From contig NZ_LMVC01000008.1 in the NCBI RefSeq assembly GCF_001510655.1, positions 365 through 64,364 on the forward strand: a stretch of DNA of 64,000 nucleotides. The letters are read 5' to 3'. This document shows positions 42,929-45,589 of this stretch, piece by piece. This DNA is from Fictibacillus sp. FJAT-27399. Lineage in GTDB: Bacteria > Bacillota > Bacilli > Bacillales > Fictibacillaceae. The translations under genes and the position numbers were made by a program. Below the pieces are notes generated by a model. It had not been told where the DNA came from. It made no database searches and was given only the letters and a program-made list of their open reading frames with translations. Position 1 is the stretch's first letter, and each line of letters starts with the position of its first letter.

Positions 42929-42948
42929 AAAAAGAGCCTAAGCGGCTC
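42927..42948 (-). terminator. Terminator of the regulator-peptide operon
   Basis: On the minus strand GAGCC-gctta-GGCTC is followed by seven T. It lies 12 bp after the peptide stop codon and ends the two-gene operon. Confidence 0.82.
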
Positions 42949-42959
42949 AAAATATATAC

Positions 42960-43190
42960 TCAGCAACTGCTAGAACCCAAGTCAGGTAACTCATCAAAAG
43001 CTACAAGTTTAGGGCTTGTTTTAGGAAGTTCATCAAAGGCAGTAAGCTTAAAGGTTTTAGGAAGTTCATCAAAGGCAGTAAGCTTCACGATTGTTTTAGG
43101 AAGCTCATCAAATGCGCTGTTTTTAAAAATAGGGAAAGCTAAAGCCAACATAAATGTTAGTATCAAAAAACCAGTAATAACTCTTTTCAT
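42960..43190 (-). CDS. Secreted pro-peptide with four AFDELP repeats (signal precursor)
   Basis: A 76-residue precursor. Residues 1-25 are a Sec signal peptide: MKRVITGFLILTFMLALAF and a short charged patch. The rest is four tandem units whose core AFDELP starts at residues 26, 39, 51 and 64. The linkers are KTIVKLT, KTFKLT, KTSPKLV and a final DLGSSSC. GGAGG precedes the ATG, which is only 14 bp after the stop of the regulator gene. By analogy with PapR, NprX and Phr, secreted precursor would be cut to short peptides that re-enter the cell and bind the TPR regulator. The repeated precursor is unusual; no function is proven. Confidence 0.8.
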   Translation of the reverse strand: MKRVITGFLILTFMLALAFPIFKNSAFDELPKTIVKLTAFDELPKTFKLTAFDELPKTSPKLVAFDELPDLGSSSC

Positions 43191-43204
43191 GAAAAATTCC
43201 TCCA

Positions 43205-44476
43205 TTAAAATATCTTTTTTCTACTATTATTTGATATTCTATAGAACAAACTTGCCTTTTTATATTGGCTTTGATCAAAATATGAATCAGCAAGCAGTTC
43301 AGAATAAAGCGAAACATATTCCCACATATTTCTTTTTTCAAAATGAGGTATAGCTTCTTTACTAACAAATGTTTCAAACTCTGACCAGGTATATTCCGAA
43401 CCTTCAACTCTATAATTTAATATTTGCAAATGGTAATAAAAATCACTAGTCGTATTATTACCCAAGTTATCAAAGCTTTTTTTTATCCACTGTCGGGCCT
43501 GTTCAAAATCCTGAAGTTCAAAAAATTCTTGAGCCAGCATATAACTGGTTCCAGCTATACGTTCAGGGTCCCCATCTTTCTCTTTATAAAAAAGACTTTT
43601 TTTAAAAAATTCTACAGCTTTAAGATGTTCTTTTTTACAAGAAAAAACATAGCCGAGGTTATGATAAATAACACCTGAGGTGAAATTATCATGAAACGAT
43701 CTAGAATATTTTAAAGCTTGATTAAGGTGATATTCTGCTTGATCGTAATTTTGAACTCTTCTGTAGCTAATAGCTAGCAATATTTGACAATCCGCACTTC
43801 TACTATAATTATATTCTTTATCAAAAATTCCTATCGCTTTAAAGGCATAAGAATTGACTGCGCTTATACGCATCAAGTAACCATAGGCAAGAGCGGTTAA
43901 ATAGTATAATACTGCAACATCACTCTCGTTAATATTACTGTTTGTTGTATTGTAAATGTCTTCAGCTTTTTTGAAAAATTGTATTGAAAGTTTATGATTA
44001 TTTTGATTAATATTAAGGCTGCCCGATACAATATTAAAATAGAATATAAGTTCAGGCGTAAGTTGCTCTTTTAGATTATTAACTTTTAATAAAAGATTGC
44101 TGGCTGCATTTATGTTTGGGTTTGCCGTAACAATATAATACCTCGCCAAAAACAACTCATATCTCAAAATAAGCTCAGGCTCATTTACGATTTGCATTTT
44201 TTCCTGAACTTTCTCAAAAAAATCATCCGCTTCCTCAAACCGACGATTCACCATCATCATATTCCACTCATTGAGCAGTTCGAGGATCTCGTTGCTGTCG
44301 ACTTCCTCGGGCGAAATACCTAAACGTTCACATAGGAGATTAATGACTTCCTCGCTGGACTTCGCATCCCCTTTCTCAATCTTACTCAAGTAGGAAACAG
44401 AACAGATTCCCTGAGCCAGTTCTTCCTGGGTTAGGCCTTTGGTTTTTCTATAATATCTTATTCTCTGACCGACCAT
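43205..44476 (-). CDS. NprR/PlcR-like HTH-TPR quorum-sensing regulator
   Basis: A 423-residue protein. Residues 1-62 are an XRE-type HTH (RIRYYRKTKGLTQEELAQ, VSYLSKIEKGDAKSSEEV) like that of NprR and PlcR. The remainder is all-helical with TPR-like pairs, for example YDQAEYHLNQALKYSR and HLKAVEFFKKSLFYKE, forming a peptide-binding superhelix. Length equals NprR of B. cereus (423). AGGGGG lies before the ATG. The next gene encodes a repeat-bearing pro-peptide. GC is low (about 25-38% in most lines I counted) in the TPR part but about 43-45% in the HTH part, suggesting a mosaic or acquired gene. Target genes are unknown. Confidence 0.82.
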   Translation of the reverse strand: MVGQRIRYYRKTKGLTQEELAQGICSVSYLSKIEKGDAKSSEEVINLLCERLGISPEEVDSNEILELLNEWNMMMVNRRFEEADDFFEKVQEKMQIVNEPELILRYELFLARYYIVTANPNINAASNLLLKVNNLKEQLTPELIFYFNIVSGSLNINQNNHKLSIQFFKKAEDIYNTTNSNINESDVAVLYYLTALAYGYLMRISAVNSYAFKAIGIFDKEYNYSRSADCQILLAISYRRVQNYDQAEYHLNQALKYSRSFHDNFTSGVIYHNLGYVFSCKKEHLKAVEFFKKSLFYKEKDGDPERIAGTSYMLAQEFFELQDFEQARQWIKKSFDNLGNNTTSDFYYHLQILNYRVEGSEYTWSEFETFVSKEAIPHFEKRNMWEYVSLYSELLADSYFDQSQYKKASLFYRISNNSRKKIF

Positions 44477-44495: not shown

Positions 44496-44556
44496 TTGGG
44501 AAAATTGTCATACTAACCCCCTACTCATCAAGTACCAATACTACTACTTTTCCCAA
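44496..44556. promoter_or_regulatory. Spaced inverted repeat in the regulator's upstream region
   Basis: TTGGGAAAA (44496-44504) and its exact complement TTTTCCCAA (44548-44556) lie 52 bp apart centre to centre, between the regulator and the divergent gene at 44702. They may be operator half-sites. Confidence 0.4.
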
Positions 44557-44701
44557 TACATACCTACAGAATAGTCTGTTAAGATAAATATAACAGAAAA
44601 TAATCAGTTTTTGCTAGAATTACACAATTAAAATAATTTCAAAGACTTGTCCGGATGGTAAGAAAGTTATAACCGGCCATAAAGAAATGGAGGAGAACAT
44701 A

Positions 44702-45589
44702 ATGGCGAAAATGTATACATTATCAGCGCAAGAATCGGACATCCAGGAGCTGCTATATGTCTCAAATGATCCAGGTTCAGCCGGAAAGCCTTCAGCCAGC
44801 GAACTTGATGACTCTACTCCATATACTGATGTGTTCATGGATAATAAAAAAAATTACTGGTTTGCCAAAGCCCAGGATACAAAAAACAAACGGCACACCA
44901 TCTATATCTTTGACCATGAAAATGGCAGGCTCATCTCACATAAAGTCAACGGCCGACCGAATTTTTATGAGTTTGATGACAGTGTTGTCATCGCTTGTGA
45001 AGGTGATGGGTCTAAAGGCTCGCTTCTTATTTTCTCAAAGGAACAGCCGAAGCTTATAAAAGAATGGAAAGTGAACGGTTACCTGTGGGAAGTCGAGAAG
45101 AACCAAGGAGCCATTTATGTTTCTTGTTATATTGTAGAGGAAGATCAAGCTGTCCTCTACGTCATTAAAGACAATAAGAAAAAAAGGGTGAACCTGGGAA
45201 AGAATATGGCACCTACCGATATCCTTTGCATTAAGGATGAGGTTTACATTTCAGCGGCTCCCATTCTAAACGGCGATCCAAAGAAAATCATTGTCTTGAA
45301 CAGTAATGAGAAAGTGGTAAGAGAATATCCGCTGAGTATATCGCCGAGAACACTCTATCATGTAGAGGATGAGATCATGGTGTATGAATTGGATCTTGCC
45401 ACAGGGAAAACGGAAAAGATTGTGTATGTTAATCTGCATACCGGTGAACAGTTCACACATGCAATTCCAAACTCGCAAGTGGTGGAATGTACGAGCCGCT
45501 CGCTTTCTCTCTTGCAGCAAGACAGCAAAACCTTGTTTACTTGGGACCATACGAATCGTAAAATCGTTGAAAGCCGAAAGATTTCTTAA
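44702..45589 (+). CDS. Protein of unknown function, divergent from the quorum regulator
   Basis: I do not recognise this 295-residue protein. It has no signal peptide or membrane segment. The sequence is a series of short beta-strand pairs with aromatic ends (YWFAKAQDT, HTIYIFDHENGRLIS, GSLLIFSKEQPKL, YVNLHTGEQF), as in beta-propellers of the WD40/Kelch type. It begins with an odd stretch, ELLYVSNDPGSAGKPS. GGAGGAG precedes ATG 44702. It shares its upstream region with the HTH-TPR regulator, so it may be a target; that is inference. A strong terminator follows. Confidence 0.6.
   Translation: MAKMYTLSAQESDIQELLYVSNDPGSAGKPSASELDDSTPYTDVFMDNKKNYWFAKAQDTKNKRHTIYIFDHENGRLISHKVNGRPNFYEFDDSVVIACEGDGSKGSLLIFSKEQPKLIKEWKVNGYLWEVEKNQGAIYVSCYIVEEDQAVLYVIKDNKKKRVNLGKNMAPTDILCIKDEVYISAAPILNGDPKKIIVLNSNEKVVREYPLSISPRTLYHVEDEIMVYELDLATGKTEKIVYVNLHTGEQFTHAIPNSQVVECTSRSLSLLQQDSKTLFTWDHTNRKIVESRKIS

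Follow-up and report, generated by a model that had tools for sequence, protein, structure and literature searches.

What is encoded by a small gene that repeats the hexapeptide AFDELP four times directly behind an HTH-TPR regulator in the soil bacterium Fictibacillus sp. FJAT-27399? The initial annotation of the locus, within the window analysed here (the whole stretch of DNA, 64,000 nucleotides), proposed a quorum-sensing cassette in which AFDELP would be the signal of an NprR/PlcR-like receptor. Comparison with related genomes lends strong support to the proposed quorum-sensing cassette, to AFDELP as the putative signal and to its coupling to an NprR-like receptor. We give a probability of roughly 80% to the following reading: the locus is a chromosomal NprR-type quorum-sensing operon, whose AFDELP-type peptide would lead the regulator to bridge two half-sites and to activate its targets, predicted to include protease and sporulation-timing genes. 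The features of the locus are collected in Table 1.

Table 1. Features of the candidate quorum-sensing locus (positions in the window)
Feature	Position	Strand	Basis or remark
Intrinsic terminator hairpin GAGCCGCTTAGGCTC and T-run, common to the convergent YkuD gene	42934..42948	-	
Candidate Sec-type pheromone precursor of 76 aa with four copies of AFDELP	42960..43190	-	sequence; repeat orthologues in the family
AFDELP copy 4 (GCTTTTGATGAGTTACCT), then DLGSSSC	42984..43001	-	residue 64
AFDELP copy 3 (GCCTTTGATGAACTTCCT)	43023..43040	-	residue 51
AFDELP copy 2 (GCCTTTGATGAACTTCCT)	43059..43076	-	residue 39
AFDELP copy 1 (GCATTTGATGAGCTTCCT)	43098..43115	-	residue 26
Predicted NprR-type RRNPP receptor and transcription factor of 423 aa, with HTH_3 at residues 6-58 and nine TPR helix pairs at 61-422	43205..44476	-	
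Predicted operator TTGGGAAAA-N43-TTTTCCCAA, between the regulator and the divergent gene	44496..44556		conservation; genome-wide pair search
Extended -10 TGTTAAGAT for the divergent gene; lies 20 bp from the operator, the standard distance	44577..44585	+	
Divergent gene for a conserved protein of 300 aa without Pfam family; predicted target	44687..45589	+	

The surroundings in the window are core chromosome genes, among which we take glmM, glmS, proS, alr and sigB-rsb to be recognisable from their translations. A mobile-element origin was considered and rejected: core genes are present in the window, there is no near phage match, and the precursor is unmatched in phages or plasmids.

A tandem-repeat precursor follows the regulator

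The regulator stop codon and the precursor are separated by 14 bp, as initially annotated, and a strong Shine-Dalgarno sequence (ATGGAGGAATTTTTCATG) stands before the precursor. An alternative in-frame ATG upstream would give a product of 81 aa, but it abuts the Shine-Dalgarno sequence. The shared terminator is likewise present, and the four copies are found at the residues first reported. When the mature precursor was shuffled 20,000 times, no hexamer ever occurred more than twice, as against four times for AFDELP. Codons differ across the four copies (GCA/GCC/GCC/GCT, GAG/GAA/GAA/GAG and CTT/CTT/CTT/TTA), the residues being identical. The same cassette is intact in a second genome of this species (L074). 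The precursor (P0001) matched no database family.

The Lys/Thr-rich linker that had been described after each copy holds for copies 1-3, which are followed by KT, and not for copy 4, which is followed by DLGSSSC. As the residues past the Pro vary between copies (KT, KT, KT, DL), the functional unit would end at or soon after this Pro. The residues after the Pro differ in all three copies of the F. enclensis precursor. The C-terminus of the window precursor, GSSSC (42960-42980), has a terminal Cys, unlike that of most relatives.

The regulator is an NprR-type protein in the broad sense

In Pfam, the regulator matches HTH_3 (4e-13) and TPR_12 (2e-15), and a RapH_N-like match at residues 59-115 lies below the cut-off. 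The closest solved sequences are NprR (4gpk, E 5e-16), then Rap proteins. The AlphaFold model (pLDDT 92.7) consists of an HTH and nine TPR helix pairs, and its best Foldseek match is NprR (5dbk), the Raps coming next. NprR-type proteins in the broad sense combine an N-terminal HTH, a helical region like that of Rap and nine TPRs, and the regulator has this arrangement. The NprR part of the identity first proposed is thus upheld by the best sequence and fold matches, and the PlcR part is abandoned: the regulator has nine TPRs versus about five, and no PlcR chain is found at E 0.01 among the solved-structure sequence matches. A Rap identity was also rejected, as the regulator has an HTH, whereas Rap proteins have no DNA-binding domain.

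RRNPP/RRNPPA systems are defined by a TPR receptor of 250-500 aa and an adjacent Sec-exported propeptide of 10-100 aa (PMC10075063). Here, a 423-aa protein with nine TPR pairs is followed, 14 bp downstream, by a 76-aa precursor, whose secretion signal was assigned by reading of the sequence. Because B. cereus NprR clusters with G159/G098 in the receptor tree, apart from the regulator's clade and with weak deep support, the regulator is classed here, on phylogenetic grounds, as NprR-type in the broad sense and outside the orthologues of the B. cereus-group NprR.

The locus resembles NprR-NprX of the B. cereus group (4GPK, 5DBK) in its receptor of about 423 aa with an HTH and nine TPRs, in the precursor directly downstream, in having a neutral protease among its predicted targets, and in the kept tetramer-interface aromatics (Y222, Y224). 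Of these, which correspond to Y223 and F225 of NprR, Y222 is present in 33/33 family sequences and Tyr or Phe at 224 also in 33/33. Unlike NprR-NprX, the Fictibacillus receptor is not orthologous in the tree, its predicted ligand is [x][D/E]xxP versus SKPDIVG, its signal occurs in tandem copies and nprA is not adjacent. Most NprX-contact residues also differ, R126, Y165, W167, H201, N306, D309 and R343 of NprR corresponding to A118, N159, H161, Y200, R306, G309 and T343. Within the Spo0F-binding set (NprR D107, Y118, E188, Y223), E99 and Y222 are similar or kept, L110 is not, and the E188 position differs between two alignments; because of this disagreement, a loss of Spo0F binding is no more than a possible reading. 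N273 is kept and aligned with an Asn of NprR and RapH; it is probably the peptide-backbone Asn conserved in RNPP proteins (PMC3601957).

PlcR-PapR is also comparable, with an HTH-TPR receptor that activates extracellular enzyme genes and a peptide gene downstream, but PlcR has five TPRs, and its operator and peptide do not match. The loose likeness initially noted to the LPFEF peptide of PapR does not survive comparison with relatives, in which the conserved core is [D/E]-x-x-P.

Candidate signal arrays in the family and selection on their copies

The regulator is present in 34/34 genomes of the GTDB family, whose named members are Fictibacillus species; all that is found of it in G026 is a pair of partial matches, each on a different contig. 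Counts refer to the 33 genomes with an intact regulator, two of them from the window's own species. In the family, the regulator is followed by a small secreted ORF; 30/33 genomes conserve its place, its secretion signal and its repeats, with 3-9 signal copies per precursor. The pattern named at the outset as refuting the proposal, homologues in which no conserved peptide ORF adjoins the regulator, is thus not the one observed. The precursor of F. aquaticus has one signal copy, FHDVPGRP at the C-terminus is the only signal candidate in L028, and no recognisable signal was found behind the regulator of F. gelatini (L029).

The signals of the family include AFDELP, AHDDLP, AHDQNP, AHDDNP, AHDDSP, ARDELP, FDDSP, IEDNP, VDNSPGIK, TENNPGIR, SDNNPSIK, VDNGPNPT, YDENPP, IDDRP, AHDDTP and IDQTP. 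Common to them are the Pro and, at position -3, an acidic residue, and species differ at positions -4, -2, -1 and +1 relative to the Pro, where modal residues agree in only 0.10-0.27 of between-species pairs. Within a precursor, the copies agree closely from position -4 up to the Pro (identity 0.94-1.0) and poorly in the flanks (about 0.3). On the receptor side, the HTH is nearly invariant, with an entropy of 0.22 versus 1.54 in the TPR region. Variability is higher at positions aligned with NprX contacts than at TPR positions drawn at random (about 0.01; the alignment is uncertain at some of the contact positions), as expected if the receptor groove follows the signal.

Most relatives from outside the family are single-copy (e.g., QEEHPDPN, KDQHPDPI). 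Arrays of 5-8 copies also occur in other families of the order (L060, L089, L094, L103), with signals including AVDKHPDPT, AIDQHPDPT, AHESHPDPQ and EAEHPDPT. These arrays are independent, and many of their relatives have a single copy. At another locus (L063; G027:C1:528200-536500), four NprR-like receptor genes stand in tandem, with no recognisable precursor behind any of them.

When the copies are compared inside each precursor, core codons give a pS of 0.57, a pN of 0.021 and a pN/pS of 0.037, and the linkers between copies a pN/pS of 0.81; core pN is lower than pS in 29/29 precursors tested. As synonymous sites of the core diverge and non-synonymous sites hardly do, every copy appears to be selected and used.

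This result bears on two other explanations of the repeats. The pair could be a real quorum-sensing system of which only the C-terminal copy is processed, the others being by-products of repeat slippage. Classical RRNPP signals (Phr/NprX) are indeed C-terminal, some relatives end exactly in the signal (VDNGPNPT, IDDRPEL), and copy 4 of the window is followed by other residues than its neighbours (DL, not KT). We nevertheless consider this quite unlikely, since the protein sequence of every copy, and not of the last alone, is maintained in spite of synonymous divergence, and since internal copies of the phi105 and phi3T Phr precursors are excised and active (PMC11343458). Alternatively, the ORF could encode a secreted repeat protein (an adhesin fragment, an antimicrobial or a protease substrate) found by chance after the regulator, a view to which the lack of a database family for the precursor leaves some room, its signalling role being deduced from sequence. 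It is hardly plausible, as the short conserved spacing, the Sec signal, the place after an RRNPP receptor, and selection on the core only, between hypervariable linkers, all fit known RRNPP precursors.

The tandem architecture itself, whose novelty the initial annotation had implied, is not new, because multi-copy RRNPP precursors, including NprR-associated ones, have already been published. Phr and NprX precursors with duplicated signals were reported in 2016 (PMC5199041), a later survey describes up to six copies, and repeats in 17/17 large NprR-associated precursors (PMC9765709), multi-copy Phr, NprX, AimP and PapR precursors reach 6-8 copies (PMC5199041, PMC9765709), and two tandem Phr precursors are processed into active peptides, up to eight copies being cited (PMC11343458). 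The published cases (the tandem Phr of phi3T and phi105, PMC11343458; multi-copy NprX, Phr, AimP and PapR, PMC5199041, PMC9765709) resemble ours in having several signal copies per precursor, with copies more conserved than linkers, but are mainly two-copy Rap-Phr systems or scattered large precursors. Here, in contrast, 3-9 copies of a species-specific signal stand beside an orthologous HTH receptor throughout an entire family. Within the literature searched, what appears to be new is (i) that arrays of species-specific signals, with selection on each copy, extend across the family, and (ii) the operator of fixed gap, the promoter geometry that goes with it and a predicted regulon that includes a second quorum-sensing pair; some of these loci may be listed in the supplementary tables of PMC5199041, PMC9765709 and PMC11343458. 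Our literature search found no paper naming Fictibacillus together with NprR and quorum sensing.

A predicted two-part operator in the regulator promoter

TTGGGAAAA and TTTTCCCAA sit in the strongly conserved promoter region of the regulator and are kept in its 25 closest homologous promoters. In this genome, with gaps of 28-58 allowed, the pair is found at four sites, the gap being exactly 43 in all, and the reversed control gives none. With gaps of 33-53 allowed, 34/34 family genomes have 2-7 sites, with listed gaps of 42-44 and 0 sites in the reversed control. Measured from centre to centre, the half-sites are separated by 51-52 bp, or about five turns of the helix. Only the fixed-gap pair is informative, because the single element TGACAATTTTCCCAA, with two mismatches allowed, is no commoner than the control.

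Sites with a gap of 42 or 43 occur in 26/249 genomes of the order; 25/26 also encode the regulator at E<1e-45 (Fisher 1e-13), as do 16/17 of those from outside the family (Fisher 4e-9). From this position and co-occurrence, the operator is predicted to belong to the regulator. It is absent upstream of many more distant NprR-like genes, and no TTGGGAAA was found near nprR/nprA of G159, whose NprR (37%) is the nearest to the B. cereus type among 397 genomes, none of which has a close one.

The sites could also be bound by another regulator controlling this operon, either one of two paralogues encoded in this genome (L002, L003) or an unrelated dimer. Both paralogues have an HTH recognition helix very similar to that of the regulator, and the site is also found near PhoX and FdhD genes. 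This appears unlikely: each family genome examined at this position has the site in the promoter of the regulator itself, the site tracks the presence of the regulator lineage outside the family, and it is missing from the upstream regions of both paralogues.

We know of no published operator of the TTGGGAAAA-N43-TTTTCCCAA form. AimR, the arbitrium receptor of phages, is an RRNPP regulator that binds two inverted half-sites with a long fixed spacer and is inhibited by its peptide. The operator described here shares the inverted half-sites and the long fixed spacer, but its spacer is 42-43 bp, its half-site is another one, and its regulator is predicted to be activated, and not inhibited, by the peptide.

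Promoter geometry and predicted targets

In 40/40 distinct promoters from the five main target classes (divergent gene, M4, S8, PfpI, Rap), the extended -10 motif TGnTAnnnT stands 18-20 bp after the operator; these promoters come from related species and are hence not independent. By comparison, the motif occurs in 0/12 cases on the regulator side, in at most 2 in shuffles, and in a mean of 0.4 at other offsets. Judging from its geometry, this operator/-10 layout is the one of an activator whose site overlaps the -35 region. Towards the regulator, 18-20 bp separate the operator from the start codon and the extended -10 is absent; autoregulation may therefore be negative.

Targets were taken as the nearest downstream ORFs and assigned for part of the sites; M4, DJ-1/PfpI and Rap/TPR were checked by Pfam, and the other neighbours were named from sequence. 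The divergent 300-aa gene is conserved beside the regulator in the family. Elsewhere in this genome, the operator adjoins genes for an M4 neutral protease (C6:1403046, L182:3180-4823), a DJ-1/PfpI protein (C6:1598881) and, with one mismatch, a Rap protein (C6:1416193, L203). The predicted operator and -10 precede an M4 gene in this genome and two others. Further neighbours are subtilisin-like protease, PhoX-like and FdhD genes. The PhoX-like (L165, L186, L194, L197) and FdhD (L178, L179, L206) pairs may act differently or serve the other side, because they have no extended -10 at the usual distance. For one perfect pair of this genome (G000:C7:67201-67261, L184/L204), no clear target gene was found; the nearest ORFs encode a Cys/His-rich protein of 73 aa and, at a greater distance, a Wzz-like protein.

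Rap homologues without an HTH lie behind the operator at L203 (G000:C6:1414000-1418500), L159, L170, L188, L191, L195, L202, L207 and L213. In 8/9 of these, a small secreted ORF overlaps the end of the Rap gene by 4 nt, with endings such as AEHGR, AGHGET and SEHGVIRDTPTHV, and looks like a Phr precursor. The small ORF of L213 contains three copies of a RDAIVPDSEK-like repeat.

Proposed mechanism and significance

In the proposed mechanism, the precursor would be exported by Sec and cut extracellularly into several AFDELP-type peptides, with AFDELP or FDELP as mature core, perhaps extended by 1-2 C-terminal residues. The re-imported peptide would sit in the TPR groove, and the peptide-loaded regulator, probably a tetramer, would hold the two half-sites. 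In B. thuringiensis, NprX induces an NprR tetramer for which simultaneous binding to two DNA sites has been proposed (PMC4970707). In the promoters of target genes, the proximal half-site would overlap the -35 region upstream of the extended -10, leading to activation, in this genome, of the divergent gene, the neutral (M4) protease, the DJ-1/PfpI protein and the Rap-Phr pair. Since receptor and precursor would be co-transcribed, repeat number would raise the signal per receptor, and copies within one gene would change together, giving a species-specific signal.

With little better than even confidence, we extend this reading to the whole family: an orthologous receptor would be paired with tandem arrays in species dialects, each copy being selected and the groove co-changing while the HTH and the 61-bp operator stay fixed. 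By bridging half-sites five turns apart, it would activate proteases that may mature its own signal and switch on Rap-Phr, in a two-tier cascade towards sporulation.

Some thirty natural receptor-signal pairs with a constant output site offer suitable material for reading the RRNPP receptor-peptide code, and for studying how signals change while communication is maintained. With so precise a two-part operator, it also becomes possible to test whether a tetramer of the NprR type spans two half-sites that lie far apart. Finally, the predicted link from the NprR-type regulator to Rap-Phr would join two layers of quorum sensing that the B. cereus group combines in a single protein.
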